DNA from: Pseudomonas capeferrum
GTDB taxonomy: Bacteria; Pseudomonadota; Gammaproteobacteria; Pseudomonadales; Pseudomonadaceae
DNA length: 64,000 bases
Assembly (NCBI RefSeq): GCF_013523055.1
Contig: NZ_JAAMQM010000029.1
Span: 1-64,000 of the forward strand
Direction: 5' to 3'
Part shown: piece by piece, positions 1,503 through 35,584 of the stretch
Numbering within the stretch: position 1 is the first letter of the stretch
Layout of the letters: every line of letters starts with the position of its first letter
Notes under the pieces: model-generated
What the model was told of the DNA's origin: nothing
The model's database searches: none
Seen by the model: only the letters and a program-made list of their open reading frames with translations
Translations under genes and position numbers: made by a program

Positions 1503-3164
1503 TCAAAAGGTGTACTTGGCGTTCAACGACAGGTAGTCGCGGTCCGCCAGCAGCCGGCCTTGAGCGATGTCCGGCGAGCTGAGGTAGGCGACATAGGTCA
1601 TGCCGACCTGGAAGTTGCCCAGGTACTTGAAGTCGCCACCGACGGTGAGGCGCTTCTCGTCACGGCCCAGGCCCTGGTAGGCGCTGCCGTCGACGTTCTG
1701 CTGCCAGACCACTTTGGTGATCAGGTCCACGCCGTTGGCGATAGAGGGATACTCCATGTAGGCGCCCAGGCCGAACAGGGTCGACCCACGGGTCTGGGTC
1801 TCGGACTCATACTGGTCGAAACTGCCGTCGACGCCAGCGCCGCCGCCCGTCACGACCAGCGTGTCGACGCCTGCGATGCGCTGATGCACCACTTCGCCCA
1901 TGAAGGTGGTCTGCTGGGCCAGGAAGCTGGGACCGAGAATGTACGAGGCATTGAGGTTGCCCTGCCAGATCTGTCCGGTCGTGGGCGCACCGTTGTCCAG
2001 GTAGACCGAGGCGCCATCGCGATAGCTCAGGTCGCCGGCATACTGCACCGAATCGCCCACCTTGGAACTGAAGCTGACCCCGGTCAGCTCGACATCCTCG
2101 AAATAGCCCATGCGGTAGGTCGGCGCCGCGCCGGCAGTGACGCGCTGGCCGATATCCGGGTTCGATGAGTAGCGGGTCTGGCCGGTGAAATCGAAGTACA
2201 GCGAGCCGACCCGTTCGTGGTAGCGGTAGTGGAACAGGCCCACCTCGGTGTTCTCGGTGATCCGGTAGCGTACGCCCAGGCCCCATTGGCCGCTGTCGCG
2301 CGGCTTGTCCTCGCCGGCATAGTTGACCGCGGTGAAGGTATTGTCCGGCAGACTCGCGACCACGCCCGGATTGAGCCGCAGGAACTGCGCTCCCGGGCCG
2401 AAGGTATCACTGCCGAAATAATCGCCTACCGGGTTGAGCTGGGTTTCCTCCCACTCGTACTGATAGAAGCCCAGCAGCGCCAGGTCCTCGTTCAGCGACC
2501 AGGACATCGACACCTGTCCCACGGGCAGGTAGGCGTCCTTGGCTTCGGTGCCGGGTACGTTGAACTTGGTCGCATCCACCGGCGCCTGGCCCTGGCTGAT
2601 GTTCGACCAGAACAGACTCTCGCCCCACGCCACCAGATGTCGACCGGCCTTGAGCGACAGGTACTGGCTTTCGCCCAGCTGGAAATTGCCATAGACGTAG
2701 GCATCGAGCAGTCGCGCCTTGCTCCCGCTCAGGCGTCGGGTGTCCTCGATGAAGCCGTCGGACCGGCCGACCTTGTTCACCGTCTGCGGGGAGTCGTTGT
2801 CGTTGCGCTGGTGATAGACATCATCGTAGAAGTGGCTGCCGCGCAGCACCGCGCCGAGGTTGTCGTGACGCAGACGCAACTCGCCGAACAGGCTGACCCG
2901 ATTGGTGATCAGCGAACCGCGCTTGAAATTGCGCGTGCCGTCATCGTTGTTGATGTCGTCGAGGTACGCGTGCGCCGGCTTGGCGGTACGCATCGACGCG
3001 GTGTAGTTGACCGTCAGCGATGAGTCCAGGGTGGTGTTCTCGCCCAGCTCGAAGGTAGGCCCGGCGCTGGCAGTGCCGCTGGCCAGGCCGATGGCCATGG
3101 CCAGCAGGCCGCGACTCGACAAACCCTTGGCTGCCCCGTGCGCGACCCGATTCGACGTAGACAT
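1503..3164 (-). CDS. DUF1302 family outer-membrane protein
   Basis: The protein is about 553 residues, with an N-terminal signal peptide (GLLAMAIGLASGTASA, then GPTFELGE). The rest is rich in alternating beta-strand sequence and ends in KYTF, the terminal-Phe signature of an outer-membrane beta-barrel. DUF1302 proteins of Pseudomonas are barrel-like exported proteins often encoded with DUF1329, YCF48-like and RND/MMPL proteins in catabolic clusters for hydrophobic compounds. I infer a role in steroid passage through the outer membrane. The start at 3164 is chosen for AAAGGAG just upstream and the signal peptide; an upstream in-frame start at 3233 would add an implausible leader. The leader holds an AACAACAA run overlapping the ribosome binding site and an upstream dyad at 3231-3249. 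A paralogue lies at 21968-23635. Confidence 0.88.
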   Translation of the reverse strand: MSTSNRVAHGAAKGLSSRGLLAMAIGLASGTASAGPTFELGENTTLDSSLTVNYTASMRTAKPAHAYLDDINNDDGTRNFKRGSLITNRVSLFGELRLRHDNLGAVLRGSHFYDDVYHQRNDNDSPQTVNKVGRSDGFIEDTRRLSGSKARLLDAYVYGNFQLGESQYLSLKAGRHLVAWGESLFWSNISQGQAPVDATKFNVPGTEAKDAYLPVGQVSMSWSLNEDLALLGFYQYEWEETQLNPVGDYFGSDTFGPGAQFLRLNPGVVASLPDNTFTAVNYAGEDKPRDSGQWGLGVRYRITENTEVGLFHYRYHERVGSLYFDFTGQTRYSSNPDIGQRVTAGAAPTYRMGYFEDVELTGVSFSSKVGDSVQYAGDLSYRDGASVYLDNGAPTTGQIWQGNLNASYILGPSFLAQQTTFMGEVVHQRIAGVDTLVVTGGGAGVDGSFDQYESETQTRGSTLFGLGAYMEYPSIANGVDLITKVVWQQNVDGSAYQGLGRDEKRLTVGGDFKYLGNFQVGMTYVAYLSSPDIAQGRLLADRDYLSLNAKYTF

Positions 3165-3170
3165 GCTGCT

Positions 3171-3190
3171 CTCCTTTGTTGTTATTTTTT
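3171..3190 (-). promoter_or_regulatory. A-rich Crc/Hfq-like CA motif over the ribosome binding site
   Basis: On the minus strand the bases read AAAAAATAACAACAAAGGAG, directly before the DUF1302 start at 3164. It matches the AANAANAA pattern bound by Hfq/Crc in Pseudomonas catabolite repression and covers the Shine-Dalgarno sequence. Function is inferred from the pattern only. Confidence 0.6.
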
Positions 3191-3230
3191 GCGTATGCCC
3201 GCGCAGCCTGGGACACCGCCCGCGGGCATG

Positions 3231-3249
3231 CATCGTCCGTTTGGTGAAA
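3231..3249 (-). promoter_or_regulatory. Putative regulon operator upstream of DUF1302
   Basis: Read toward the gene, the site ends in ACGGACGATG, 66 bases before the start codon at 3164. The right half GGACGATG is perfect. The left half is degenerate, so this is one of the weaker members of the twelve-site set. Confidence 0.5.
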
Positions 3250-3263
3250 CCGCATGGCGGCCC

Positions 3264-4871: not shown

Positions 4872-4891
4872 CAAAGGCTCGGTCAGTGGCG

Positions 4892-7156: not shown

Positions 7157-7229
7157 CACTCGTTTCTCCCGATCTCGCTGCGCCACTGCGCGAGCTGGGA
7201 ACGATCATCGGATTGGCCGAGCGATGAAT

Positions 7230-7248
7230 CATCGTCAAAGCGGACTAG
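7230..7248 (-). promoter_or_regulatory. Putative regulon operator upstream of hsaA-like gene
   Basis: Read toward the gene: CTAGTCCGCTTTGACGATG, 73 bases before the start at 7156. It is identical over all 19 bases to the site before kstD (51471-51489). Confidence 0.7.
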
Positions 7249-7289
7249 GGCCGCGCACCGGCACCTGCGAATCCGTGCCGGTCGGCCAA

Positions 7290-8480: not shown

Positions 8481-8504
8481 TCGACAGCCTGAGGAAGCAC
8501 AGCC

Positions 8505-14519: not shown

Positions 14520-15755
14520 TCAGGCCCGACGAGGCACCGGGATGGCCAGCTGCGGTGGCGGTACCTTGAGGCGGTCGACGGCCTTGAGCACCACCTTGGG
14601 CTTGCCTAGCGCCACCACGCTGTTGAGCAGGATCCGCACCAGCTCGGTCTGCCGCCGCACGCCGGTCTTGGAGAAGATCGAGCGCAGGTGCGCACGGGCG
14701 GTGTTGCGGCGGATGTTCAACGCCTCGGCGGCCTCCTCCAGCGACAGTCCGTTGGCCAGCTCCATGGCCAGTGCGGTTTCGGCCCGGGTGAGATTGAACA
14801 GTTGCTTGGTCACTACCTCGCTGGCCAGCGACTTGCTCGCCGCGTCGCGGATGTACACCAGCGCCGCCGGCTTGCCCTTCTCTTCCGCCCAGTCCAGCGA
14901 CGGAATCGACTCCACCACCAGGCCGAGATTGACCTGGCCCGAAGGCCGGGTGACCGACATGGCTTCGGCGCTCTTCGGCGCATCCGGGGAAAACGCGGAG
15001 CGGATCAGGCGCTGCAGCTCGCGGTTGTCGCTCGGGTAGGTCGCCTCCAGGCGTCCACCCACCAGCTTCAGGCCGTCGGCGTTGGCCAGGATCTCCTGCG
15101 CCACCGGATTGACCCGCAATACGCTGCCGCTCTCGTCCAGCACCAGGGTAGCCACCGACAGGCGGCTGATGGCCTGGGAATACAGCTCGCTGAGCGACTC
15201 GCTGCGGTCGAGCAGATTGTGCACCTGCAGCGCGCGCCGCAGGTGCGGCAGGAACATGCCGCACAGGGCGCGTTCATGGGCCGAGAAGTTGGCCGCGTGC
15301 TTGGGCCGGGTGATCCGGAAACGCAACTTGCCGCCATCGGGGGTGGAGATGTCGGCCCCCATCACGTGGTACACCCCTTGCGGGCCGCAGAACATCTTGA
15401 AGTAGGCGCTGTGCTCCCATTCGGTCGAAGTCATGATGTCATCGACGGTGAAGACGTGGTCCAGCGGCTGGTTGGCGAAGGGGGTATTGGTCTGCGGGTA
15501 GGTCATGTAGCTGACGTCGCCGGCCCCTTCGATATCGCCGGAAATGATCATCACGCCCATGTCCGGCTGGTCCGGCACACGCAGGATCAGGGTGACGTAG
15601 TTGGCTTCGTAGAGCGTGCGGAAGCTGGTCAGCGCATGGGCCATCAGCTTGGGGTCGAGGGCGCCTTCGTAGATCTCGCCGACCAGGCGATCATAGGTGG
15701 CCAGGTCGTGGCCGAGACTGGCCAGTACATCATGGGTCAAGACAGCTTTGTCCAC
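14520..15755 (-). CDS. LuxR-family transcriptional regulator, TeiR-like
   Basis: The 411-residue protein ends in a LuxR/GerE helix-turn-helix at about residues 319-378 (LTRAETALAMELANGLS, then NTARAHLRSIFSKTGVRRQT). The first 300 residues hold a sensor region with a PAS-like segment around 195-300 (LVLDESGSVLRVNPVAQEIL). This plan and size recall TeiR, the LuxR-type activator of steroid catabolism in Comamonas testosteroni. It starts with GTG at 15755 after AGGAG. It is the only transcription factor gene recognised in the island, apart from the MarR-like tail of the flavin reductase. That makes it the natural candidate for the protein reading the twelve shared dyads. The A-rich stretch AAAAATAACAAGGGAAGG upstream may be a Crc/Hfq target. 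Confidence 0.87.
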   Translation of the reverse strand: MDKAVLTHDVLASLGHDLATYDRLVGEIYEGALDPKLMAHALTSFRTLYEANYVTLILRVPDQPDMGVMIISGDIEGAGDVSYMTYPQTNTPFANQPLDHVFTVDDIMTSTEWEHSAYFKMFCGPQGVYHVMGADISTPDGGKLRFRITRPKHAANFSAHERALCGMFLPHLRRALQVHNLLDRSESLSELYSQAISRLSVATLVLDESGSVLRVNPVAQEILANADGLKLVGGRLEATYPSDNRELQRLIRSAFSPDAPKSAEAMSVTRPSGQVNLGLVVESIPSLDWAEEKGKPAALVYIRDAASKSLASEVVTKQLFNLTRAETALAMELANGLSLEEAAEALNIRRNTARAHLRSIFSKTGVRRQTELVRILLNSVVALGKPKVVLKAVDRLKVPPPQLAIPVPRRA

Positions 15756-15903: not shown

Positions 15904-18315
15904 TTATTTTTCGTTACCGGATGTCACAAGTGCATCGTGCCGGCCGGCACCGCGTGGCACGGTGTGCGGCTTGACCAATGCCTGACCGCGGTTGAACCAG
16001 GCGGCGAGCGCGGGCAGCAGGAAGATCGCCCCAAGCACGTTGACCAGGAACATGAACGACAGCAGCACGCCCATGTCGGCCTGGAACTTGAGCGGCGCGA
16101 ACGCCCAGGTGCAGACCCCGATCGACATGGTCAGCGCGGTGAACACCGCTGCCGTCCCGCGCTGGCACATGGCGAGGTAGAACGCCTCGCGCAGGTTCGC
16201 TCCCGCGCTCATCTCGTGCTGGATGCGTTCGTAAAGATAGATGCCATAGTCCACGCCGACCCCGACGCCCAGCGCCATTACTGGCAGGGTAGCCACCTTG
16301 AGGCCGATGCCGAGCATGGCCATCAGGGCATTGCAGAGGATCGCCACGATGGCCAGGGGGACCAGGATGCACAGCACCGCGCGCAGCGAGAGGAAGGTCA
16401 GCCAGCAGAACAGCGCCACCGAGCCGAACAGCGCCGCCAGCATGATGACCTCGGCACGCTTGACCGCTTCGTTGGAGGCGGCCATCACCCCGACATTGCC
16501 ACCTGCCAGCAGGAACTCGACCCGCGGCGTGCGCACCTGCTCGATGATCCGCCGCGCCTCGCCGATGGCATGGCCGACGGTGGCCCCCTCATGGTCGGCG
16601 AGAAACACCAGGATCTGCATCTGCTGGCAGCCCTCGGTCACCAGCCCATCGTCGGGCATGTAGGCCCGCGCGCCCTGGCTCAGCCCACGGGCCGAACCGG
16701 GAATGGCCGCCCAGCGCGGATTGCCTTCGTTATTGCCGGCGATCACCCGCTTGCCCATGCCCGCCACGCTCTGCACCGACTGCACGCCGCTGACCGCGCG
16801 CATGCGGAAATCGAAGGCTTCGACGGCGCGCATCACCTCCGGCGACAGGCATCCCTCCTCGATGCCCTTGACCTCGACGAAGACCGACATCACGTCCAGG
16901 CCGATCGAGTAGCTGCCGATGATCTGCGCATTGTCCTGGTTGTAGCGCGAGTCGGCGCGCAGCTCCGGCGCACCGGCGCCGATATCGCCCACCGCCAGGT
17001 CGCGTGCCTTCCAGGCGCCAGCCACCAGCAGCGTCAGGCTCACCGCGAACACCGCCAGCGCGGGGCCCGGCTCGGCCAGTGCCGACAGTCGCCACCATAG
17101 CCGGTGACGCCCGCCCTGCCGAGCCTGGGCACGGCGCAGGGAGGCAGGCTCCAGGCGCAGCCAGGAGAGAATGATCGGCAGCATCAGTTTGTTGGTGATG
17201 ATCATCAGCATCACCCCGATGCAGGCAGTCACGCCCAGTTCATGAACGATCGGGATGTCGATCAGCATGATCACCGCAAAGCCCAGGGCGTTCATCAGCA
17301 AGGCCAGGGAGCCGGGGATGAAGATCTTGCAGAAGGCCGAGCGCGCCGCCTCCAGCGAACTGGCACCGGCCACCACATCCTGTTTCCAGGCGTTGGTCAT
17401 CTGCACCGCATGCGACACGCCGATGGAAAAGATCAGGAACGGCACCAGGATCGACATCGGGTCGATGCCCAGCCCCAACAGCGGCAGCAGCCCCAGCAGC
17501 CAGACCACCGGCAGCAAGGCGACCACCAGGGCGACCAAGGTCAGGCGCAGCGAACGGGCATACACCCACAACAGCAGTGCGGTGATGGCAAAGGCAATCA
17601 CGAAGAAGCCGATCACCGTGTTCAGCCCTTCCACCACATCGCCGACCAGCTTGGCGAAGCCGACGATGTTGATCTCGATCTGCTCGTTGGCGTACTTGTG
17701 CCGGATCGCCTCCAGGCGTGTGGCGACCTCGGCGTAATCCACCGCCTTGCCGGTCTGGGGGTCGATGTCCTGCAGGTCGGCGCGGACCATCGCCGATTTC
17801 AGGTCATTGGCCACCAGCCGGCCGATCTGTCCGGAAGCGGCGGCATTGCTGCGCACCTGTGCCAGGTCCTCGGCGCTGCCATTGAAGCGCGGCGGCACCA
17901 CCACGTCGCCGTAGAAACCTTCCTCGGTGATCTCGATATAGCGCACGTTGGCGGTGAACAAGGAGGTCACGCTGGCACGGTTGACTCCCGAGATGAAGAA
18001 CACATCGTCGGTGACCTTTCTCAGCGTCTCGAGGAATTCCGGATTGTACAGGTCACCCTCGCCCTTCCAGCGCACGCTGACCAGGAAACGGTTGGCGCCG
18101 GTGAAGTACTGGCTGAACCTGAGGAAATTGACCATGAAAGCATGGCGTACCGGTATCTGCTTGTTGAAGCCGGGGTCCAGCTGGGTGTGAGTGGCGCTGT
18201 AGCCCAGCCCCAACGACAGCAGCACGAACAACAACAGCAAGCCTTTTCGCCAGCTCATCAATGTGTTGGCGGTGGTCTCGACGCAACGTGCTACCCGGGT
18301 CTCTGCTCTTTTCAT
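15904..18315 (-). CDS. RND superfamily (MMPL-type) transporter
   Basis: The protein of about 803 residues has the duplicated RND plan: one N-terminal membrane helix, a large periplasmic loop, five helices, then the same again. Hydrophobic runs include GLLLLFVLLSLGLGYSA near the start, and the second half has MALGVGVGVDYGIYLYERI. It resembles HpnN/MMPL lipid exporters rather than drug-efflux RND pumps, and no membrane-fusion partner gene is nearby. It starts 11 bases after the YCF48-like gene with GAGGGAC upstream. Such pairs recur with DUF1302 and DUF1329 proteins in clusters for hydrophobic substrates. I infer steroid or acyl-lipid movement across the envelope; direction is unknown. Confidence 0.87.
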   Translation of the reverse strand: MKRAETRVARCVETTANTLMSWRKGLLLLFVLLSLGLGYSATHTQLDPGFNKQIPVRHAFMVNFLRFSQYFTGANRFLVSVRWKGEGDLYNPEFLETLRKVTDDVFFISGVNRASVTSLFTANVRYIEITEEGFYGDVVVPPRFNGSAEDLAQVRSNAAASGQIGRLVANDLKSAMVRADLQDIDPQTGKAVDYAEVATRLEAIRHKYANEQIEINIVGFAKLVGDVVEGLNTVIGFFVIAFAITALLLWVYARSLRLTLVALVVALLPVVWLLGLLPLLGLGIDPMSILVPFLIFSIGVSHAVQMTNAWKQDVVAGASSLEAARSAFCKIFIPGSLALLMNALGFAVIMLIDIPIVHELGVTACIGVMLMIITNKLMLPIILSWLRLEPASLRRAQARQGGRHRLWWRLSALAEPGPALAVFAVSLTLLVAGAWKARDLAVGDIGAGAPELRADSRYNQDNAQIIGSYSIGLDVMSVFVEVKGIEEGCLSPEVMRAVEAFDFRMRAVSGVQSVQSVAGMGKRVIAGNNEGNPRWAAIPGSARGLSQGARAYMPDDGLVTEGCQQMQILVFLADHEGATVGHAIGEARRIIEQVRTPRVEFLLAGGNVGVMAASNEAVKRAEVIMLAALFGSVALFCWLTFLSLRAVLCILVPLAIVAILCNALMAMLGIGLKVATLPVMALGVGVGVDYGIYLYERIQHEMSAGANLREAFYLAMCQRGTAAVFTALTMSIGVCTWAFAPLKFQADMGVLLSFMFLVNVLGAIFLLPALAAWFNRGQALVKPHTVPRGAGRHDALVTSGNEK

Positions 18316-18325
18316 CGTCCGTCCC

Positions 18326-19294
18326 TCATTTGCCCAGCGTGACAAGATTGCCCGCGGTGCCGTCGAATACTCCTTGCTCGCCGCCCAGCAGTAGCCGCGA
18401 ACCGACCATCGCCGCCGACGTCAGCGTGCCGCGCCCGGCCATCCGCGCGCTGCTCACCAGCGCACCGCGGCCATCCAGATGCAGCACCAGGCTGCCTGCG
18501 CCGACGATGACCACGCCACCGCCCGGCAGCCGCGCATGGCCGTACAGAGGCAGTGGGTTGCCGGTCTCGACCTGCTGCCAGCGCTCGCCGAAGTCATGAC
18601 TGACGAACACATGTCCGCGCATGCCGTAGGCCACCCAGTCGTTCGCGCTCAGGCGCACGATGCCGAACAGCGAGCCGGTGTAGAACGCCGGCAGCGGTTC
18701 CCAGTGCGCGCCTGCGTCGTGGCTGCGCAACACCAGGCCTTGTTCGCCGACCAGCATGCGTCGGCCATCGGCGCCGCCGTCCAGGCCGTTGAGGTGGGCA
18801 TTGTCGATATCCAGTGCCAGGCGGTGCCAGTTCAGCCCGGCGTCTTCGGACTGATAGAACTTGCCGAAACTGCCGAAGGCCAGGACCCGGTCGCCACCTG
18901 CCGCCCATACGCCCAACAGCGGCTCGCCCAGCTGACTGTCGTGACGCACCTCGCGCCACTGCTCGCCACCGTCGTCGGAACGCAGGATCCAGCCGTCATG
19001 CCCCACCGCCAGCAGGCGTTGGCCATCCAGGGCCACCAGTGCGGTCAGCGCGACCTGGCGTTGCGGCGTCACCTGCGCCGCTTGCCAACTCACGCCTTGA
19101 TCGTCGCTGAACAGGATGCTGCCTCGCTCGCCCACCGCCAGCACGCGACGGTCGAGGTCGAGCAACGCGTTGATCTGCACTCGGTCGACGCGCGGCGGTT
19201 GCGTGGCCGGTATCGGTTCGGGACGGGGAAGAAAGGTAAAGACGATGGTCAGGCCAACGAACAGGCAGACCAGATAGCCGATCACCGAGCGCAT
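18326..19294 (-). CDS. YCF48-like/BNR-repeat exported protein
   Basis: The 322-residue protein has an N-terminal membrane anchor or signal (VIGYLVCLFVGLTIVFTFL). Repeated beta-propeller blades follow, with Asp-box-like motifs such as SDDQGVSWQ, SDDGGEQWRE, SEDAGLNWHR and SHDAGAHWEP. The fold is that of the YCF48/sortilin-like propellers. It is probably a periplasmic accessory of the RND protein encoded 11 bases downstream, perhaps as an assembly or substrate-presenting factor; that role is inference. The start at 19294 is favoured over 19318 because AGGAG precedes it. The leader contains ACAAGAACAAGAGG and a distant dyad at 19442-19460. Confidence 0.83.
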   Translation of the reverse strand: MRSVIGYLVCLFVGLTIVFTFLPRPEPIPATQPPRVDRVQINALLDLDRRVLAVGERGSILFSDDQGVSWQAAQVTPQRQVALTALVALDGQRLLAVGHDGWILRSDDGGEQWREVRHDSQLGEPLLGVWAAGGDRVLAFGSFGKFYQSEDAGLNWHRLALDIDNAHLNGLDGGADGRRMLVGEQGLVLRSHDAGAHWEPLPAFYTGSLFGIVRLSANDWVAYGMRGHVFVSHDFGERWQQVETGNPLPLYGHARLPGGGVVIVGAGSLVLHLDGRGALVSSARMAGRGTLTSAAMVGSRLLLGGEQGVFDGTAGNLVTLGK

Positions 19295-19441
19295 GGACGT
19301 CGCTCCTGATCGTGACACGCGAACAAAGCAGCCATGGAGCCATTCCTCTTGTTCTTGTCAGGCGCCGAGCCCGCTGAAGCGGGCTGGGTCAGGCATTGCC
19401 GCAAGGGGCACTGGGATAGTCGGCCGGGGACGTGATCGCCA

Positions 19442-19460
19442 CATCGTCCAAATGGCCTAC
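19442..19460 (-). promoter_or_regulatory. Putative regulon operator upstream of YCF48-RND operon
   Basis: Read toward the gene: GTAGGCCATTTGGACGATG, 147 bases before the start at 19294. The right half is exact and the left half has GGCC in place of GTCC, so it is a weaker and more distant site. Confidence 0.45.
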
Positions 19461-21967: not shown

Positions 21968-23635
21968 TCAGAAGGTGTATTTCAACGAGAAGGTCGCGTA
22001 GTCACGGTCAGCGAAGGGACGCTTGATCGCATCGGGCGAGCCCAGGTAGCCGGTGTAGTTGAGCCCGACTTCCAGGTTGCCCAGGTACTTGAAGGTGGTG
22101 CCTACGCTGATCCGGCGGTCTCCCTGTACGCCGGCGATGCTGCCGGACATGGGCGTCGAGCCGCTGAACACGTTGGAGAAGCGCACCGGCACTTCCAGAT
22201 CCCAGCCCTGGAAAACCCCTGGATAACTGAACGATGCGCCCAGGGTGTAGGCGCTGGCATCGCGGGAACGCCAGCCGGAAGCGGACTTGTAGGTGTAGTC
22301 ATCGGAAGCTCCGACCAGAGGTGCCAGGCTCGGCAACAGGTTCACGTCCTGCAGGTTCCCGGCGGCGGACGTGGCATCGACGCTGTCGACGCGCACATGA
22401 ACGATTTCGCCGGTCAGGGTGGTCTGGCTGGCCCAGGGCATGTCGCCCAGCACGCGCATGGCCGAGAGCTGGATCTGCTGGCCCTTGCCCCTGGCCGGCG
22501 TCGGCCCGAGGCCCGTATTGACCATTACCGGGGCCCCGTCGCGGTACGACCATTCGGCGCCGATCTGGGTTTCGCCGAGCTTGGTCGAGGCGCTGATGCC
22601 GGTCAGCTTGATGTCCTCGAAGTACTTCACCCGATAGCCGTTGCTGGCGAAGGCGAACTGGTCGCCGCCGACGGCCACGGTGTTGTAGCCGAGCAGCGCG
22701 GTCGCCGGGTTCTTGTCGTGGTAATTGACGTGGAACAGCGACAGCTCCAGGGCCGGCACTGGCCGGTAGCGCAGTTGCACGCCCCACTGGCCGCTGTCTC
22801 GAGGCTCGTCGGTTCCACGGTACGGCGCGTTGCCGGTCGGCGTGATGAGAAATTCGCGGCCCGGGCCGATCACGTCGCTGCTCGACAGGTAGCTGCCCAC
22901 CGGCGGCAGCTCGGTGCCCTTCCATTCATATTGGACATAGGCACCGACGGTGAACTGAGGGTTGAAGCGGTACGAGGCCGACACCTGCCCCACGGGCAGC
23001 AGCACTTCCTTGACCTCGACCCCGGGCTGCGCGGCCTTGACCGCGTCCGATGGGTTCTGCACGCCGTTGACGCCCGGGTAGTAGAGGCTCTCGCCCCATG
23101 ATTCGATATGCCGCCCGGCCTTGGCGTCGAGCATCGAGCCGTTGTCGAAACGCCAGCCACCGAAGACGTAGGCGTCGAGCAGGCGGGTACGGCCGCCGCT
23201 GTAGTAGCGGGTGTCGCTGGTGAACTCGTCGTTATCGCCACCCTTGTTCACGGTGCCTGGCGAGTCGTTGTCATTCTCGTTGTGGTACACGTCGTCGTAG
23301 AAGGTACTGGCGCGTATCACGGCGCCATAGTTGTCCATGCGCAGGATCATTTCGCCCAGCGCGCCCACGCGGTTGGTGGTCAGGCTGCCGCGGTCGAAGT
23401 TGCGGTTGGCGTCGTCGGCGTTGACCCCCAGCAGGCGATCGCTGGGCTTGCCCAGGCGCATGCCGATGCCGTAGCTGGTCGTCACCGACCAGTCGATGGT
23501 CGCGCCGTTGTCGAATTCGATGGTTTCCCCTGACCAGGCCGGCGTCGAGGCCAGCGCGATCACCGCCGTCAGGCTGGCCGCCTGGACGCCCCGTGAAGCA
23601 AGTCCGGTCCCGTTATTGTTGTTCTTGTCGATCAC
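21968..23635 (-). CDS. DUF1302 family outer-membrane protein (second copy)
   Basis: The protein is about 555 residues, with a signal peptide (LTAVIALASTPAWSG) and a predicted beta-barrel body ending in FSLKYTF. It shares many blocks with the copy at 1503-3164, for instance STFYDDVYHNENDNDSPGTV versus SHFYDDVYHQRNDNDSPQTV, so the two are paralogues. The GTG at 23635 is chosen because CAGGAGAG precedes it. Codons 3-8 encode DKNNNN, written AAGAACAACAATAACG in DNA, a Crc/Hfq-like run. The start overlaps the end of the MBL gene by 23 bases. I infer outer-membrane transport of steroids. Confidence 0.86.
   Translation of the reverse strand: MIDKNNNNGTGLASRGVQAASLTAVIALASTPAWSGETIEFDNGATIDWSVTTSYGIGMRLGKPSDRLLGVNADDANRNFDRGSLTTNRVGALGEMILRMDNYGAVIRASTFYDDVYHNENDNDSPGTVNKGGDNDEFTSDTRYYSGGRTRLLDAYVFGGWRFDNGSMLDAKAGRHIESWGESLYYPGVNGVQNPSDAVKAAQPGVEVKEVLLPVGQVSASYRFNPQFTVGAYVQYEWKGTELPPVGSYLSSSDVIGPGREFLITPTGNAPYRGTDEPRDSGQWGVQLRYRPVPALELSLFHVNYHDKNPATALLGYNTVAVGGDQFAFASNGYRVKYFEDIKLTGISASTKLGETQIGAEWSYRDGAPVMVNTGLGPTPARGKGQQIQLSAMRVLGDMPWASQTTLTGEIVHVRVDSVDATSAAGNLQDVNLLPSLAPLVGASDDYTYKSASGWRSRDASAYTLGASFSYPGVFQGWDLEVPVRFSNVFSGSTPMSGSIAGVQGDRRISVGTTFKYLGNLEVGLNYTGYLGSPDAIKRPFADRDYATFSLKYTF
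23611..23626 (-). promoter_or_regulatory. A-rich Crc/Hfq-like CA motif in first codons of DUF1302
   Basis: The minus strand reads AAGAACAACAATAACG within codons 4-8 after the GTG start at 23635. It fits AANAANAA repeats near a start codon, a typical Hfq/Crc target position. Confidence 0.5.
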
Positions 23636-24788
23636 ACTGACTCTCCTGAAGGGCAACCGGCTGGCTGCCTGGAATGTTCAACGTCGTCGCCGAGCCGAGC
23701 GCCTGGCCGCCACCAGGCGCCGCGACAGCGGGCTGTGTTCGCGGACCACGCCGGTAGCGGTAGTGCGTCTGGTGGTGTTCGCGTACGAGCAGCCCTTCGG
23801 CCATGAGGTAGTTGGCATGGGCCAACGTTTCGCCAAGCGCCATCAGTTCGTCGAAACGACCTGACAGCGTGGGGAACAGCACGGCCATCAGCTCGAGCGC
23901 GCTACGCGGCTCGTCACAGCTGGCCAGCAACAGTGCGAGATGGGCCTGGTGATGGGCCTGCAACTGGTCCAGGCGCGCATGCAGGTTGAAGAACGGCCGC
24001 TCGTGGGCCGGCAAGACCAGCACGCTGTCCGGTAGCTGGCGCAGGTGCTCGAGCGAGGTCAGCCAATCGCGCAGCGGATCGGCCTCGGGTTCGGTGGCAT
24101 GCACACCTACCGTGGAAGTGATCCGCGGGAGCACCTGGTCACCGGCAATCAGCAGGCCCTCGTCTTCTGCGTACAGACAGGCGTGTTCGGGGGAGTGGCC
24201 GCGACCGATCACCACTTGCCAGTGCCGTGCGCCGATGCGCAAACGGTCGCCCTCGCGCAGGCGCCGGAAGCTGTTGAAATGCAGCGGGCGAAAATGCCCG
24301 TTCTGGATCAACCGGTACAGTTCGCCAGCGTGCTCCTCGGTAAACCCCGCCTTGCGGTAGAAATCGACGAAATCCCAACCCGCCGGCGAGGCCTCGGGCA
24401 CCGCCACGTACAGCGAACGGTACTCGGCGGCGGTCATGTACACCGGGCAGCGAAAGCGTTCGGCCAGCCAGCCGGCCACCCCGGAATGATCGGAGTGGTA
24501 ATGGGTGCAGATCACCGCCAGCAACGGCTGGCCCCCGAACAGCCGCTCGAATACCTGCTCCCAGACCTCGCGGGTCTGATCGGTGTTCATGCCGGTGTCG
24601 ACCACGACCCACCCTTCGTCATGGCGCAGCAGGTAGAGGTTGATGTGGTCCAGGCGAAACGGCAGCGGCATGCGCAACCACCACACACCTGCCGCCACCT
24701 CGCGCACCTGGCCGCTGTCCGGGGCCTGCGGCCAGGGGTAGCGAAGGCCGGCGTACAGCTCATGGCCATTGGCATCGAGCTCATCCAT
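23613..24788 (-). CDS. MBL-fold metallo-hydrolase
   Basis: The protein is about 391 residues, with the metallo-beta-lactamase motif THYHSDHSG at residues 95-103. Later ligands are in GRGHSPEHACLY, GDQVLPRITS and LVLPAHERPF. Large members of this group hydrolyse thioesters, lactones or glutathione adducts. No product type can be assigned from sequence. The start at 24788 is chosen because it overlaps the end of the upstream ligase gene by 8 bases; a longer reading from 24893 would lie inside that gene. It sits between the FATP-like ligase and the second DUF1302 gene. A CoA thioesterase or steroid lactonase would make sense there, as inference. Confidence 0.82.
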   Translation of the reverse strand: MDELDANGHELYAGLRYPWPQAPDSGQVREVAAGVWWLRMPLPFRLDHINLYLLRHDEGWVVVDTGMNTDQTREVWEQVFERLFGGQPLLAVICTHYHSDHSGVAGWLAERFRCPVYMTAAEYRSLYVAVPEASPAGWDFVDFYRKAGFTEEHAGELYRLIQNGHFRPLHFNSFRRLREGDRLRIGARHWQVVIGRGHSPEHACLYAEDEGLLIAGDQVLPRITSTVGVHATEPEADPLRDWLTSLEHLRQLPDSVLVLPAHERPFFNLHARLDQLQAHHQAHLALLLASCDEPRSALELMAVLFPTLSGRFDELMALGETLAHANYLMAEGLLVREHHQTHYRYRRGPRTQPAVAAPGGGQALGSATTLNIPGSQPVALQESQCDRQEQQ

Positions 24789-26634
24789 GTCGGCCACCGA
24801 CGAAGGCCGGCAGGCCGACGCGCGCCAACGCCTGCGGCGAGTACGGCTGGTAGGTGCGGCTGGCCTCGTCGCGGATGAACAGCGGATCGGCACAGGCCTG
24901 CGGGCAATAGCCCTGGCGCTGCAGGTCGACCTTGCGCAGCTTGAAGGTACTGGTCAGGTCCGCCGCCGCGCTCACCCGGACGAACACCGGCGCCGCGTAG
25001 CGCGGCAAGCGGGCTTCGGTGAGGGCGTAGAAGGCCTGCGGGTCGAACGCTTGGCCCGCTTGCATCAACACCGCGGCCATGCCCGCCCTGCCCTCATGCT
25101 CGGGCACCTGCACGCCGTAGATGTTGATCAGTTCCAGGGCCGGCAGGTCGCTCAAGGCGTCGGCCACCTCCTGGGTGGAGACGTTCTCGCTCTTCCAGCG
25201 GAAGGTATCGCCGATACGGTCGACGAAGTAGCAGTAGCCGTCGGCGTCCTGGCGCAGCAGATCGCCGGAGCTCCACCAGGCGTCGCCCTCGCGCAGGACA
25301 TTGCGGCGGATCTTGCTTTCGGTGGCCGCGGCACAGGTATAGCCCTCGAAGCGGCCACCGCCGATGTCCGGGTGGTCGATGACCATGCCCATGGCTTCGC
25401 CCACTTCCCCGACCTCGCAGAGTTGGTAGAAACCGTTTTCATCGCGCGGGTGGCAGTCGTTCTCGACATCGAAGCGCACCAGGCGCAGGTTGGTGCGGTT
25501 CCAGTCCGGCACCCGGCCACAGGAGCCGAGGAAGTTGTCGACATTGATCAGGTTGGTATTGGCTTCGGTCGCGCCCCAACCCTCGAAGACCTGGATCGGC
25601 CCGAAACGCTCGACCCAGCGCTGCCAGGATTCGCTCGACAAGCCGGCGCCAAGCATGCAGCGCAGACTGTGCTCGCGCTCTCCCGCAACGGGCGGACGGT
25701 TCAGCAGGTAGCGGCAGATTTCGCCGATGTACTGGAACACGCTGATCCGATGGCGGGCGACATCGTTCCAGAACTCGCGCACGCTGAACTTGCGTCGCAC
25801 CACGATGCTCGCCCCGGCACGCAGCGCGGTCGAGGTCACCGAGGTCGCGGCGGCGCCGTGGTAGAGCGGCAGGCAGCAGTAGAAGACGTCATCGACGGTG
25901 GCGTTGAGCGTCACCTCCATCACATCGCCCGACGACAACCAGCGCATGTGGCTGTAGCGCGCGGCCTTGGGCAGGCCGGTGGTGCCCGAGGTGAAGATCA
26001 GCAAGGTCGTCGCTTGAGCCTCGATAGCGGCACGCATGTGGCGAGGAAAAGTGCTGCATGGCGCGCTGGCCAGGCGCGTGCCGAAATGTCGGTCGAGGCC
26101 CTTGGGCAGTTTGCCCGACCAGGGATTTTGCGCATCGTCGACCAGCCACATCGGCAAGGCCGGCAAGCCTTCGGTGGCGTGCAGGTTGGCCAGGCACTCC
26201 TCACCGACCACCAGCGCCTTGGCGCCTGTCGTGTCCAGGGCATGCAGCAAGGGCTTGCCCGAGACCTGGGTATTGATCAGCGCTACCACCACGCCGAGCT
26301 TGACCAGGCCGAACCAGCAGATGAAGAACGCCGGACGGTTCTCCATCAGGATGGCGCAGACGTCACCGGGCTGCAGGCCCAAGGCATGACAGGCATGGGC
26401 CATCTGGTTGGCCTGGCTGTCGACCTCGGCGTAACTCAGGGTCTGTTCGCCATGGATCAGGAAAGGCCGTTCGCCGTGACGCGCCGATTGTTCCTCCAGG
26501 CGGTCGGCCAGGGTGTAGTGATCGCGAGGCTTGATCCGGGCACTGGCGGCGGCGCGCAGGTCGAGCAAGGCCTGGGTCTGCTCACGGCTTACCGGTGCCT
26601 GGGCCTGAACCGCCATCGATTGCGGCATGTTCAT
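24781..26634 (-). CDS. FATP/very-long-chain-type acyl-CoA synthetase
   Basis: The 617-residue AMP-forming ligase has the P-loop FTSGTTGLPKAARYSH at about 214-229. It also has GWGATEANTNLINVDN, the DRIGDTFRWKSENVST hinge, and a C-terminal LTSTFKLRKVDLQRQGY with the catalytic Lys. The WKSENVST and YGVQVPEHEGRAGMAA stretches place it in the FATP/bile-acid-CoA-ligase branch rather than with short-chain ligases. Eukaryotic relatives activate bile acids and very long chain acids. It may attach CoA to the intact C5 side chain. The ATG at 26634 overlaps the stop of the upstream old yellow enzyme gene by four bases (ATGA). Confidence 0.87.
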   Translation of the reverse strand: MNMPQSMAVQAQAPVSREQTQALLDLRAAASARIKPRDHYTLADRLEEQSARHGERPFLIHGEQTLSYAEVDSQANQMAHACHALGLQPGDVCAILMENRPAFFICWFGLVKLGVVVALINTQVSGKPLLHALDTTGAKALVVGEECLANLHATEGLPALPMWLVDDAQNPWSGKLPKGLDRHFGTRLASAPCSTFPRHMRAAIEAQATTLLIFTSGTTGLPKAARYSHMRWLSSGDVMEVTLNATVDDVFYCCLPLYHGAAATSVTSTALRAGASIVVRRKFSVREFWNDVARHRISVFQYIGEICRYLLNRPPVAGEREHSLRCMLGAGLSSESWQRWVERFGPIQVFEGWGATEANTNLINVDNFLGSCGRVPDWNRTNLRLVRFDVENDCHPRDENGFYQLCEVGEVGEAMGMVIDHPDIGGGRFEGYTCAAATESKIRRNVLREGDAWWSSGDLLRQDADGYCYFVDRIGDTFRWKSENVSTQEVADALSDLPALELINIYGVQVPEHEGRAGMAAVLMQAGQAFDPQAFYALTEARLPRYAAPVFVRVSAAADLTSTFKLRKVDLQRQGYCPQACADPLFIRDEASRTYQPYSPQALARVGLPAFVGGRHG

Positions 26635-27804: not shown

Positions 27805-27823
27805 CATCGTCCGTCGAGACTAG
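27805..27823 (-). promoter_or_regulatory. Putative regulon operator upstream of old yellow enzyme operon
   Basis: Read toward the gene: CTAGTCTCGACGGACGATG, 91 bases before the start at 27713. It shares the divergent promoter region with the site at 27874-27892 for the MFS gene. Confidence 0.65.
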
Positions 27824-27873: not shown

Positions 27874-27892
27874 CTGGTCTGAACAGACGATG
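27874..27892 (+). promoter_or_regulatory. Putative regulon operator upstream of MFS transporter
   Basis: CTGGTCTGAACAGACGATG lies 60 bases before the GTG start at 27953. The inner GTCTGAACAGAC is a near-perfect dyad, and the right half GACGATG is exact. Confidence 0.65.
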
Positions 27893-27928
27893 AAATATCG
27901 CTAGGATGCGTCGAGCATCGTGCGCATC

Positions 27929-27944
27929 AAAACAAGAAGCGGAG
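27929..27944 (+). promoter_or_regulatory. A-rich leader next to ribosome binding site of MFS gene
   Basis: AAAACAAGAAGCGGAG runs into the Shine-Dalgarno sequence eight bases before the GTG at 27953. It is a weaker AANAANAA match than those at 3171 and 35567. Confidence 0.4.
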
Positions 27945-27952
27945 CCCCCTAC

Positions 27953-29281
27953 GTGAACGCACCCAACCCCGTTACCTGGCGTACCCACTACGCCCTGCTG
28001 GTGCTGGCCAGCATCTACGTCTTCAACTACATCGACCGCCAGCTGATGGCGATCCTGATCGAGCCTGTGAAACTCGAGTTCGGGATTTCCGACACCGGTA
28101 TCGGCCTGCTCTCGGGGGTGACTTTCGCCGTGTTCTATACGGTGTTCGGGTTCCCGCTGGGGCGGCTGTCCGACCGGATCGGGCGCAAGCCGGTGATCGC
28201 CTTCAGCTGCATGGCCTGGAGCCTGATGACCATGCTTTGCGGCATGGCGGGCAACTTCCTTACCCTGGTGCTGGCGCGGATCGGTGTGGCCGTGGGCGAG
28301 GCTGGTGGGACCGCGCCATCGGTGGCGATGGTCTCGGACCTGTACCCGGCGAACCGCCGTTCCACGGCATTGGCGGTATTGATGCTTGGGTCGAGCCTGG
28401 GCGCGGTCGTCGGCCTGGGGCTGGGGGGCTGGATTGCGCAGCATCATGGCTGGCGTCACGCGTTCCTGCTGATCGGCGCGCCGGGGATCTTTCTAGGGTT
28501 GGTGCTGTTGCTGACCGTGCGTGCGCCGACGCCTGTGCGTGTCATGCAGGCTGTCGCTGGGCAGCCGCAAGGGTGGGTGCAGACGCTGGTCGAGCTCATG
28601 CGCATGCCGTCGTTCCTGTGGCTGGTGCTGACGGGTGGCGCGGCGGCGATCGCCGGTTATGCGATCGGGACCTGGAGCCCGAGTTTCCTGATTCGCTCGC
28701 ATGGGCTGAACATGCAGCAGGCGGGGTTTCTGGTGGGCGTGGTGGGTGGCACGGGGTCGGCCATCGGCACCTTGGTATGCGGGATGTTGACGGACCGACT
28801 GGCCCGGCGGGATGTGGGGTGGCAGATCGGGGTGCCGCTGCTGGGGACCTTGATCAGTATTCCGTTCGCCCTCGCCTACTTCCTCTGGCCGCAGGGGGTG
28901 GCGTTTCATATCGGGGATACGCCGGTGCCGCAGGCGTTCCTGTTCTATAGCGCATTCGGGTTCTTTGGGGTGTGGTGGGCAACGCCTTGCCTGGGGGCCA
29001 TCACTCATCTGTTTCCGGCCAATCGATTGGCGCAGGCCACGGCGATCTTCGTCATGGCGATGACGCTGCTTGGGGTTGGCCTCGGGCCGTTGTTGATAGG
29101 GGTGCTCAGTGATCTGTTGCTGCCGAGTCTGCAAGGTGAGTCGCTGCGGTATGCGTTGGCGGCTTCGGTGATGTTGCTGGTGCTGGCGGCGGTGTTTCTG
29201 GCGCTGGCGTTGCCGCGCTACAGGGCGCAGATGAAAGGAGGCGCTGAACGGGCTGTTTCGGCCAGGCCGGTGGTTGTCTGA
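27953..29281 (+). CDS. MFS transporter, spinster/aromatic-acid type
   Basis: The protein is about 442 residues with twelve predicted membrane helices. It has the MFS loop motif GRLSDRIGRKPVIAF between helices 2 and 3, and FNYIDRQLMAILIEPVKLEF in helix 1. It resembles transporters found in catabolic clusters for hydrophobic acids and is a paralogue of the one at 55767-57101, which starts with a similar IGRQILAVMIEPIKAEF. The GTG at 27953 is preferred to 27920 because GCGGAG sits eight bases upstream. It is transcribed alone, divergently from the old yellow enzyme operon, and probably imports a steroid or a partly degraded intermediate. Confidence 0.87.
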   Translation: MNAPNPVTWRTHYALLVLASIYVFNYIDRQLMAILIEPVKLEFGISDTGIGLLSGVTFAVFYTVFGFPLGRLSDRIGRKPVIAFSCMAWSLMTMLCGMAGNFLTLVLARIGVAVGEAGGTAPSVAMVSDLYPANRRSTALAVLMLGSSLGAVVGLGLGGWIAQHHGWRHAFLLIGAPGIFLGLVLLLTVRAPTPVRVMQAVAGQPQGWVQTLVELMRMPSFLWLVLTGGAAAIAGYAIGTWSPSFLIRSHGLNMQQAGFLVGVVGGTGSAIGTLVCGMLTDRLARRDVGWQIGVPLLGTLISIPFALAYFLWPQGVAFHIGDTPVPQAFLFYSAFGFFGVWWATPCLGAITHLFPANRLAQATAIFVMAMTLLGVGLGPLLIGVLSDLLLPSLQGESLRYALAASVMLLVLAAVFLALALPRYRAQMKGGAERAVSARPVVV

Positions 29282-29291
29282 GCAACGGCTT

Positions 29292-32836: not shown

Positions 32837-32982
32837 CTGTACGATTTCGTGCTCGGAACACTCAAGCGCTTTGCCGTTCAATTGCCAGCTACCTTATCGT
32901 TGCCTTGTCGCTGGATGTGGATACTTTGTTCAGGCTCCAGTTCAGAAGCATGGAACAGATCGTCGATGAACCCGTGCGACAA

Positions 32983-33252: not shown

Positions 33253-33401
33253 TGGATTTCCTCGAATCTTCAGGTGATGAATTGAAGCCGACGCCTGACA
33301 TGAGGCCTTGTTATTAGAAGCAGGCAGCCCTGGGCGGTTGTAAACATCATCCCAAAGAACGACGAGCGGCGAACGCCATACAGCCGCTTGTCCATCGTTC
33401 G

Positions 33402-33695: not shown

Positions 33696-33939
33696 GCGAG
33701 CGAGAGCAGCTGGCGCACTTCCCTATACCTCGCCATTTGTCTCGAACCGGAAGCCAATGAGCCAGCCGTTCATCCCAAAGGACTCGTCGGTTGATGGGAC
33801 GACCTGATCTTCAGTGCGCAGCTCGGGACGCCGCTCCGAGGAATGGGCCGCCTCTTGTGGTCCATTTCTCGAACGTTCTTGATGAGTGCAGCACTGACCG
33901 GTCCGACCGCCAACGTAGAGACTAGCGCCCGACAGCCGA

Positions 33940-34092
33940 GGATGGGCCAAGGCCGCGCGCGATGGCATTACCGGCGGGCATTGGCCTGCCAAGTCCGAGC
34001 GTAATGCCCGTTTGCTCGAAGCCGTGAGGATCATTCGCGCACTATGGGCAGGCGATGAGGTACCCCACGACGGTTTGATATATAGGCGGTAG
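33940..34092 (+). pseudogene. Fragment of an LLM-class flavin-dependent oxidoreductase
   Basis: The plus-strand frame from 33940 reads DGITGGHWPAKSERNARLLE, then AVRIIRALWAGDEVPHDG, and meets a TAG at 34090. That segment is typical of F420/FMN luciferase-like oxidoreductases, where a hGghWP loop precedes LeEAvevIRaLWsGe. Both ends of the gene are missing. With the peptidase relic just upstream, it marks 33.3-34.2 kb as decayed sequence. The bases 33696-33939 and 34093-34201 show nothing else that I can name. Confidence 0.65.
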
Positions 34093-34201
34093 AGGTGCTT
34101 ATCTTGACCGAGCGACAGTGGGCCTGGCGGGGGGCTGCATCCCGCCTACCAAGCCCAAAAGCCCATCAAGAGAAGTAGAACCGACCTCGAGCTTCAGCCA
34201 A

Positions 34202-35584
34202 TCATCGCCCGATCGCCCGCGCCGCATCCGAGGTATACATGTCCGGGGTGAACTTGCTCTCGTTGAGAATCGGCCCCTTCTTCGCCTCGTTGGTCATCCC
34301 ATACCCGGTGTACTGCCCCGAGTTCAGGTCCATGAAGAACTGCGACCCTGCCTGCCAGCCGCTCATGTCCGGATGGTAGTAGTAGTTGACCATCGCATGC
34401 TTCCATAGCTGCCCACGGGCGTCGTAGTTGTCGGCCATCACCGCGTTCCAGGTGTCCTCGTCGATGAACAGCACACGCTTGCCATAGACATGGCGGTAGC
34501 CTTCCTTGAGATCCGCTTCGACTACCCACACCCGGCGCAGCTCATAGCGCATCAGCTCCGGATTGGGGTGGTTGGGTGTCAACATCTGGGCGTACTTGAT
34601 GGTCCCGGCGTTCGGCTTGAAGGCGTTGGCGGGGCTGTAGATCTCGCGCTTGCCCAGCAGTTTCCAGGTGTAGCGCTCCGGCGCGCCGTTGAACAGGCGG
34701 TCTTCGTCCACGGTCATGGTGCCGTTGGTGCCGATCATCGGCTGGTCGTAGCCGTATCCCGGCATCTGCCGCACACGTCGGGTCGAGGGGCTGTAGGACC
34801 AGGCCTGACGGGACGAGGTGACGAAGTTGTAGGGCTCATGGGCAATGCTGATCACGCCATTGTCACGGGCCGGCTTGAGGGTGGTGTTGTAGCTCATCGC
34901 CTGGATCATGTCCTGCGTCTTGGGTTCGACGGTGGGCGAATTGGCCTGGGAGAGGTTGCGAGCGTGGGCACGCCCCCAGCCGATGCTGCCGTTGGGCAAT
35001 ACCGAAGCCAGGTCGGAGATCTTCTCTTCGGTATAGGCCCGCGCCGGCAGCTGATGATTCCACAGCACTTCCATGCCGTTCTTGGGGATGGGGAACGGTA
35101 TCTGCCCCAGCCCTTCCACCCCTAGCCCGTCGTTCACCAACTTGGCATTCAGGGCATTTTCCTTGACCCGGCGGCAGACGTAATCGGGGTAGCGGAAGTC
35201 GCGGTGGCCTGGATAGATGTTCATCTTGTAGGTGGTGGGATACTTCTTCAGCAGGGCCCTTTGCCCGTCGGTGAGGTGCGCCGCGTACTGATCCATGTTC
35301 TGCGCGGTGATCACCAGGATGGGCTTCTCGTCGGCATAAGGATCCACCGGCTGGTCACCGGAGAACTTCACGTGGTTCCAGCCAGGCACCTCGCCCAGGT
35401 ATTTTCCGGTATAGGGCGGAATGGTGCCCTCGGCATTGCCCGCCTGCTCGGCACCGACACAGGTCAGCTCCTTGCCGAGCTTGGCGGCTTCCTCGGGCGA
35501 GACGGCGGCGTAGACGCAGGTCACGAGCCCGCTATTGAGGGTCAATACGGCCGCGAGCATCACACCTGTTGTTGTTGTTTTCAT
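34202..35584 (-). CDS. DUF1329 family exported protein
   Basis: The protein is about 460 residues, with a signal peptide (MKTTTTGVMLAAVLTLNSG, cleavage after VYA). The mature body is rich in Tyr and Trp, with the DUF1329 region (RMPGYGYDQP-type segment, then RYELRRVWVVEADLKEGYRH). DUF1329 proteins are thought to adopt a LolA/LolB-like fold and are usually encoded with DUF1302 proteins. A periplasmic steroid- or lipid-carrying role is inferred. The ATG at 35584 has AAGGAGG directly upstream, which decides the start over 35626. Codons 2-6 form an AAAACAACAACAACA run, and a dyad lies at 35650-35668. It closes the large minus-strand operon but seems to have its own promoter. Confidence 0.88.
   Translation of the reverse strand: MKTTTTGVMLAAVLTLNSGLVTCVYAAVSPEEAAKLGKELTCVGAEQAGNAEGTIPPYTGKYLGEVPGWNHVKFSGDQPVDPYADEKPILVITAQNMDQYAAHLTDGQRALLKKYPTTYKMNIYPGHRDFRYPDYVCRRVKENALNAKLVNDGLGVEGLGQIPFPIPKNGMEVLWNHQLPARAYTEEKISDLASVLPNGSIGWGRAHARNLSQANSPTVEPKTQDMIQAMSYNTTLKPARDNGVISIAHEPYNFVTSSRQAWSYSPSTRRVRQMPGYGYDQPMIGTNGTMTVDEDRLFNGAPERYTWKLLGKREIYSPANAFKPNAGTIKYAQMLTPNHPNPELMRYELRRVWVVEADLKEGYRHVYGKRVLFIDEDTWNAVMADNYDARGQLWKHAMVNYYYHPDMSGWQAGSQFFMDLNSGQYTGYGMTNEAKKGPILNESKFTPDMYTSDAARAIGR
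35567..35581 (-). promoter_or_regulatory. A-rich Crc/Hfq-like CA motif in first codons of DUF1329
   Basis: Immediately after the ATG at 35584 the minus strand reads AAAACAACAACAACA. This is the cleanest AAYAAYAA repeat in the window and lies where Hfq/Crc binding would block initiation. Confidence 0.6.

Follow-up and report, generated by a model that had tools for sequence, protein, structure and literature searches.

How do bile acids and other steroids cross the envelope of a Gram-negative bacterium that carries the genes to degrade them? The question is raised by the first 64,000 nucleotides of contig NZ_JAAMQM010000029.1 of Pseudomonas capeferrum (here the window), which profile scans of the open reading frames (ORFs) identify as a major portion of a steroid-degradation island, and which holds two DUF1302 outer-membrane barrels, a DUF1329 carrier, a YCF48-like propeller and an RND protein. 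A 2021 review calls bile-acid uptake by degraders largely unknown and for Gram-negatives names only TonB-dependent receptors in alphaproteobacteria (PMC8399759); according to a 2016 survey, no system for steroid uptake had yet been identified beyond the mycolic-acid bacteria (PMC4810484). The four families very probably act as one system, since their sets have diversified together, three of them co-occur in 26 genomes, a common operator precedes them here and in relatives, and a system of the same families, AmeABCD, is already in print.

Four envelope families as a probable single system

In what follows, A denotes DUF1302, B DUF1329, C the YCF48-like and D the RND family, with a number for the member of the island set; contig C21 is that of the window, and contigs C31, C39, C6, C66, C77, C33 and C11 belong to the same genome. 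The initial annotation had located the five genes correctly (Table 1), and Pfam confirms all four families. A1 and A2 are full-length DUF1302 proteins (411.7 and 468.6 bits, cut-off 23.2). B1 (ORF 34202-35626, start taken at 35584) matches DUF1329 with 390.4 bits and LolA_like with 42.8 bits, and has a signal peptide read by eye. C1 (ORF 18326-19318) matches YCF48/BNR with 57.6 bits, an identity backed by PDB sequence matches as well. D1 gives 86.5 bits with MMPL/RND; in its earlier label, 'HpnN/MMPL-like', the HpnN half is loose, as D1 stays far under the cut-offs of both models of this hopanoid transporter (64.0 bits for a cut-off of 751.85, and 36.8 bits for one of 1100). The best NCBIfam match of D1 is TIGR00921 (HAE3), at 170.6 bits under the cut-off of 351.9, and in a hydropathy scan 12 membrane segments could not be cleanly told apart. 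The sterol transporter BstA was rejected for D1 (25.6 bits, cut-off 1400), as was the photosystem II factor Ycf48 for C1 (48.5 bits, cut-off 326).

The structure model of B1 finds LolA-superfamily structures (Foldseek E 4e-8 to 1e-5, Z 9.3-10.7); by sequence, its sole match in the PDB has an E-value of 0.54, and A2 has none up to E 1. The model of A2 is a many-stranded barrel with 18 long strands, at low confidence, and its fold search returns OmpF, AlgE, OpdK, OccAB4, FadL and TonB receptors all at a TM score of about 0.3, which points to an outer-membrane barrel with no closer relative. A ORFs end in F in all 31 full-length cases of the related loci described below, and not in all eight paralogues of the genome. 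The window ORFs scanned, which were not all of those present, include no porin or TonB receptor other than TamA, in agreement with the initial annotation, whose list of parts lacks the two MFS transporters of the window (Table 1). Neither a TolC-type channel nor a membrane fusion protein was found beside the RND gene among the same ORFs, the rest of the genome not having been searched for them, and on this ground a classical HAE1 tripartite pump was set aside for D1.

The genome as a whole contains eight members of each family: eight DUF1302, eight DUF1329, eight RND proteins of the D1 type and eight YCF48-like proteins. Five of the eight sets are complete single cassettes, the A-B genes on contig C66 and the C-D genes on contig C77 are taken as one split set, and the island holds the last two. 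These island members are sisters, with a support of 1.000, in each of the four family trees. Over all six pairs of families the Mantel correlation is 0.62-0.87, equalled or bettered by 9 to 89 of 40320 permutations; when the second island set is omitted it is 0.42-0.71, equalled or bettered by 37 to 133 of 5040. This correlated divergence suggests that the families diversified together as eight sets within the genome. Full agreement of the four paralogue trees was considered and fails beyond the island pair.

A census of 199 genomes taken as Pseudomonadota, the source genome included, covered DUF1302, DUF1329 and RND, with kinship ignored and with cut-offs for a "strong" match chosen on viewing the lists (E <=1e-24, <=1e-50 and <=1e-100, respectively). 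Strong matches occur in 28, 26 and 26 genomes. Co-occurrence had been proposed as a check with the initial annotation, and it bears the grouping out: the genomes with strong DUF1329 are the same 26 as those with strong RND, and all 26 have DUF1302 as well. DUF1302 stands alone in two genomes, and none of the three families is found in 171. Weaker matches, left out here, would raise the totals to 59, 64 and 44. In three small genomes of other families (G033:C2, G084:C90, G144:C26), weak and distant DUF1302, DUF1329 and RND genes lie together, in what looks like an ancient or divergent version of the cassette.

The operator TAGTCCGNNNGGACGATG is found before each of the four units of the window, as had been claimed (Table 1). 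It has 16 matches with up to three mismatches at 13 places, against 1.76 expected, and none of 100 shuffles reaches 16; three near-palindromic places match on both strands, and the place at 25364 lies within a gene. An identical operator sequence, TAGGCCATTTGGACGATG, stands ahead of C1-D1 and of C2-D2 on contig C31. Across the genome both exact matches to TAGTCCGNNNGGACGATG are in the island (contig C21 or C31), as are eight of the ten sites with at most one mismatch, the remaining ones being on contigs C39 and C6; with three mismatches the genome-wide count is uninformative (289 sites, and 395 for a reversed control).

The same operator recurs in relatives. The 80 related loci (1.57 Mb; the best 80 of 225 relatives found for the RND) contain 96 sites with no more than one mismatch, where each of 20 shuffled-half control patterns gives 0 or 1, and 221 sites with two mismatches, against 0-20 for the controls. 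With up to three mismatches, a correctly oriented site lies between 600 bases before and 120 after the ORF start in 60 of 64 YCF48-like ORFs (those starting more than 500 bases into the locus) and 13 of 20 DUF1329 ORFs. The proportions for RND (18/83) and DUF1302 (0/32) are low, as expected, because these genes sit inside operons. An island marker gene is found in 70 of the 80 loci, a ring-degradation marker in 57 and a TeiR-like gene in 70; of the 10 marker-free loci, three are contigs of about 5 kb, three have a TeiR-like gene and SDR only, and four have B, C, D or A, B, D only. We infer that the TeiR-like regulator binds the operator. The RND gene is followed by two or three TeiR-like LuxR genes in six loci (L095, L096, L102, L105, L108, L109).

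Two sets of results weigh against the overall explanation favoured below. The structure models of B1 and A2 are weak (pLDDT, the predicted local distance difference test, of 53 and 50), and the trees outside the island pair concur only partly: contig C33 groups with C66 in the A and B trees, and contig C77 joins the island pair in the C tree, but C11 and others in the D tree. The spread of the genes over four separate units in the window, together with five P. fragi-type loci in which no C gene was found beside the RND gene, could suggest co-regulated bystanders that share an operator and an island while serving unrelated processes; given the correlated divergence, the 26 of 26 co-occurrence and the clade-by-clade pairing described next, this explanation is very improbable.

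Barrel-carrier pairs, their probable substrates and a probable shared engine

The initial annotation had drawn a single trans-envelope path through the five genes. The four families as a system are supported, and the single path is not, because A1 goes with a carrier, B2, outside the window, and the two barrel-carrier pairs track different sets of genes. B2 lies on contig C31, which carries ring-degradation genes, a second run of C2, D2, TeiR2 and B2 (YCF48-RND-TeiR-like-DUF1329) and a KshA-type oxygenase; in P. umsongensis the gene blocks of contigs C21 and C31 are united on a single contig. Contig C39 (locus L122; 6 kb), with a divergent operator pair at 4460 and 4651, SDR genes and an alpha/beta-hydrolase-like gene, is probably a third piece of the island.

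Pairing was followed in 34 genomes reached through named loci, with the type of each gene assigned by its tree clade. Identity is 45% between A1 and A2 and 52% between B1 and B2. The count of A1-type genes equals that of B2-type genes in 33 of the 34 genomes, and the same holds for A2-type and B1-type genes; both exceptions come from surplus DUF1329 copies. The one-to-one rule is broken only where DUF1329 genes stand in tandem next to one barrel (L075 13960-16815 and G227:C62). Six genomes have a single type, namely A2, B1 and a D1-type RND in G208, G211 and G217, and A1, B2 and a D2-type RND in G215, G216 and G221, so that A and B are concordant throughout and D likewise, save for a near tie in G216 (78 and 78%). 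S. stutzeri K1, P. oryzagri and P. linyingensis have two more barrels and two more carriers, which fall outside the clades in both trees. Taken together, the sequences indicate that A2 pairs with B1, and A1 with B2.

Gene order is consistent with these pairs. In Marinobacter, A1 and B2 adjoin in the ring operon, A2 and B1 adjoin in the midst of the side-chain genes, separated by an operator site, and there is one C-D-TeiR unit; the scattered arrangement of the window is therefore probably a secondary break-up. The five P. fragi-type loci (L079, L080, L081, L083, L084) have one cassette of an RND gene (78-79% identical to D2, 78% to D1), B2 and A1, and no YCF48-like gene was found near the RND gene in them; such cassettes suggest that the system can do without the propeller or obtains it from another place.

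The pairs are probably dedicated to substrates, A2-B1 to bile acids and A1-B2 to steroids without the bile-acid side chain, because of the distribution of the side-chain aldolase and five island maps. Close homologues of the aldolase (85-96% identity) are present in 31 of the 34 genomes, precisely the 31 with A2/B1; the three with A1/B2 only lack one. In all five maps, homologues under 40% identity would be missed. The maps of the three A1/B2-only islands (58-60 kb) include ring genes, whereas A2, B1, MFS1, the side-chain aldolase and the acyl-CoA dehydrogenases of its block are absent. The two A2/B1-only islands mapped, of three, have side-chain genes and MFS1 and no A1 or OYE1.

The number of inner-membrane units follows another rule. 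Island-type RND genes never outnumber the barrels, being equal in 19 of the 34 genomes and fewer in 15, which rules out a constant equality; this count leaves out two RND matches of 51% identity and uses a stricter cut-off for RND than for barrels. The mapped islands of P. umsongensis, Marinobacter and Leaf48 each occupy a single contig and hold two A genes, two B genes and one C-D unit; in Leaf48 the row FadA6-TeiR2-B2-KshA is intact and C2-D2 is gone from its place. By coordinates alone, G200, G204 and G210 have two A-B pairs and one C-D on one contig. It is rather likely, judging from these gene counts and maps, that both A-B pairs can share one C-D engine.

Some observations tell against pairing, dedication and sharing as described. 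The A1 and B1 clades are weakly supported (0.49 and 0.736; the A2 and B2 clades have 1.0 and 0.996). The A1/B2-only genomes retain OYE2, SDR44 and ECH45, which lie among the side-chain genes in the window, and all three may trace to one event. Where D2 is missing, the RND protein of another cassette could serve A1-B2.

Other island genes of the window code for an HsaA-type monooxygenase, a FadD3-type ligase, FAD-binding KstD-type proteins, acyl-CoA dehydrogenases and ChsH2-type proteins. The names KstD, aldolase and several others in the window are presumptive, given by analogy. The island is adjoined by genes for TamA and TamB (58105-63518), of housekeeping outer-membrane assembly and probably unrelated to the transport system. 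Between two divergent operons, at 7187-8504, recurring stretches (the same text near 7400 and 8200) and runs of GAGCGGGC resembling repetitive extragenic palindromic (REP) elements were seen by eye.

Table 1. Transport-related genes and operator sites in the window
Feature	Position	Strand	Basis and remarks
A1, DUF1302 outer-membrane barrel	1503..3164	-	Pfam; in the HsaA (ring-degradation) operon; partner B2 on contig C31
Operator before the HsaA-A1 operon	7230..7247	-	1 mismatch
LuxR-type (TeiR-like) regulator	14520..15755	-	Pfam; downstream of the RND gene
D1, RND (MMPL/HAE3-like) inner-membrane protein	15904..18345	-	Pfam, NCBIfam, motif scans
C1, YCF48-like beta-propeller	18326..19294	-	Pfam; N-terminal signal or anchor read by eye
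Operator before C1-D1	19442..19459	-	2 mismatches
A2, DUF1302 outer-membrane barrel	21968..23635	-	Pfam; among side-chain genes; partner B1
Acyl-CoA ligase in the A2 operon	24781..26571	-	Profile scan, island maps; possible trapping after uptake
Operator before the operon holding A2	27805..27822	-	2 mismatches
Operator before MFS1	27875..27892	+	3 mismatches
MFS1, inner-membrane transporter	27920..29281	+	Profile scan; possible bile-acid importer
B1, DUF1329 LolA-fold exported carrier	34202..35584	-	Pfam, fold search; partner A2
Operator before B1	35650..35667	-	1 mismatch; 65 bp upstream
Side-chain aldolase gene	41005-42183		Name presumptive, by analogy
MFS2, second MFS transporter	55767..57101	+	Profile scan

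Proposed working and direction of flow

The best explanation overall, in which belief and doubt are about equal, is a doubled and unbundled system of the AmeABCD type. Set 1 (A2, B1, C1, D1) would serve bile acids, and set 2 (A1 with B2, C2 and D2 on contig C31) steroids without the bile-acid side chain. An A barrel would pass the steroid through the outer membrane, a B protein with its LolA fold would ferry it over the periplasm, and D, scaffolded by C, would draw on the proton gradient to transfer it to the inner membrane or away from it. MFS1 would bring bile-acid anions inward and the CoA ligase would trap bile acids; for these anions the inner-membrane step could be served by MFS1 and MFS2. 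Both A-B pairs could plug into one C-D engine. The family assignments, their co-inheritance, the A-B pairing, the operator and the tracking with side-chain genes are read from the sequences themselves; we infer physical contact between the parts, their substrates, proton coupling and the direction of flow.

On this last point, the general habit of the superfamily counts against uptake, RND proteins being mostly exporters. Pairs of a carrier and an RND protein work outward in MmpL7-LppX and inward in NPC2-NPC1. Net inward flow is given an even chance here. Deletion of ameABCD in Castellaniella defragrans results in poor growth on apolar monoterpenes alone, limonene among them, and normal growth on acetate with limonene up to 5 mM (PMC6394551), and in P. 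putida both PP_0765/0766 and PP_2018/2019 are required on Tween 20 (PMC10866462); both the normal growth with acetate and the need for these genes on Tween 20 are read as favouring use or uptake. Loss of the YCF48-like gene phnL in Delftia, which leads to a lag of 48 h on phenanthrene, compared with 6 h, and to metabolites accumulating outside the cell, points to use or uptake more weakly, its effect not being specific because the S-layer mutant M3, outside the system, leaks metabolites as well.

Besides the leakage in M3, several published results run contrary to uptake. The ameABCD mutant grows less above 5 mM limonene, grows normally on perillic acid, an acid, and contains more Nile Red under carbonyl cyanide m-chlorophenylhydrazone (CCCP); its authors interpret the phenotype as tolerance and conclude export (PMC6394551). 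The RND protein of the steroid cluster of P. stutzeri Chol1 has likewise been named a candidate efflux system. The S-layer control and the perillic acid result lower confidence in uptake slightly, to the even level given above.

A rival explanation is efflux, in which the same parts would form a proton-driven exporter that clears toxic bile acids or accumulated steroid intermediates out of both inner membrane and periplasm, with the DUF1302 barrel as the exit. AmeABCD is reported as an exporter, and CCCP raises the sensitivity of Chol1 to cholate. However, the Nile Red difference was called slight and real-time efflux nearly identical, the mutant was normal on acetate with limonene up to 5 mM (PMC6394551), and Tween 20 is a required food (PMC10866462) and, by our own judgement, no poison known here. 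The RND sequence contributes an argument for export: D699-Y700, in the second half of D1, aligns with the Asp-Tyr of MmpL exporters and is kept in 82 of 83 related ORFs. On balance, efflux is a possible but tentative alternative.

In the first half of D1, S311-H312 is read as sitting at the place matching D699-Y700, and Ser-His is found there in all eight paralogues and all 83 related ORFs. The eight paralogues thus have Ser-His where Asp-Tyr is expected in the first half and retain Asp-Tyr in the second, a difference that possibly reflects an asymmetric proton path.

A further explanation is outer-membrane maintenance or vesicle formation, in which the parts would move lipid or build vesicles on amphipathic substrates and steroid entry would be affected indirectly. 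Vesicles and nanopods are strongly reduced in the phnL mutant, nanopod material was found to contain DUF1302 and DUF1329 proteins, and B has a LolA-like fold; but a generic membrane role does not predict that A-B pairs track substrate genes, and eight diverged sets in one genome also speak against it, which makes it improbable.

Returning to the doubled AmeABCD-type system, the pairing rule and the substrate tracking supply named genes, predicted substrates and a testable question on envelope crossing. If the RND protein works inward, the usual view of the superfamily would be overturned, and the finding could extend to users of monoterpenes, aromatic hydrocarbons and Tween that have the same parts. 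A single proton-driven RND importer with interchangeable entrances for C24 bile acids and side-chain-free steroids, used across Proteobacteria for many hydrophobic substrates, is a speculation that we consider doubtful.

Comparison with known systems

The logic of a barrel combined with a CoA ligase is that of vectorial acylation by FadL-FadD; here the A protein is DUF1302 by Pfam, and a carrier and an RND engine are added. The hopanoid transporter HpnN and the sterol transporter BstA are RND-superfamily relatives that handle polycyclic lipids, and D1 is far under the cut-offs for both.

The initial annotation held that none of the proteins has a firmly assigned function, which passes over published mutants of the same families. 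Its grouping of the families is right but not new in kind, AmeABCD being already in print, and a steroid-cluster RND gene as such had been noted for P. stutzeri Chol1. Judging from a search of open-licence papers in PMC (CC0, CC BY, CC BY-SA), what is new is the version of the system in a steroid island, the rule of pairing, the tracking of substrates by the pairs and the shared use of one engine: no paper in this collection was found for DUF1302 with steroid or with bile, and DUF1329 with steroid gave a P. aeruginosa pangenome paper only.

In Delftia, DelCs14_1756-1758 include DUF1302 and DUF1329 genes, the YCF48-like phnL being there too (PMC3110197, PMC3958437), and a benzene 'Nanopod' cluster has porin-like, DUF1329, YCF48-related and MMPL proteins (PMC13101534). 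Both differ from the window in that they concern aromatic hydrocarbons and that their authors connect them with vesicles or nanopods. A DUF1329 deletion, DelCs14_1722, cited by PMC13101534, was not found by word searches in the paper that it cites. In P. putida, PP_0765 (DUF1302) and PP_0766 (DUF1329) go with PP_2018 and PP_2019, split over two loci like the set on contigs C66 and C77 (PMC10866462). PP_2018 was described as periplasmic and PP_2019 as a multidrug efflux transporter, and they are presumably the YCF48-like and RND members. This system differs in its substrate, Tween 20, in its one A-B pair and in that no steroid island is named.

The closest likeness, compared by description, is to AmeABCD of C. 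defragrans, which has the same four families under the same letters (A, DUF1302; B, DUF1329; C, YCF48-like; D, RND) in a catabolic island for a hydrophobic substrate (PMC6394551). The window genes agree with it in the DUF1302 protein, the exported protein of the DUF1329/LolA superfamily and the periplasmic YCF48-like protein. A single cassette of conserved order, which AmeABCD has, is found in five of the eight sets of the genome and not in the window. Unlike AmeABCD, for which export was concluded, the parts in the window are dispersed over separate units, there are two A-B pairs, and the predicted substrates are steroids. The system of the window is therefore an unbundled and doubled variant of AmeABCD and not a canonical member, because its four genes are dispersed instead of forming one ordered cassette.

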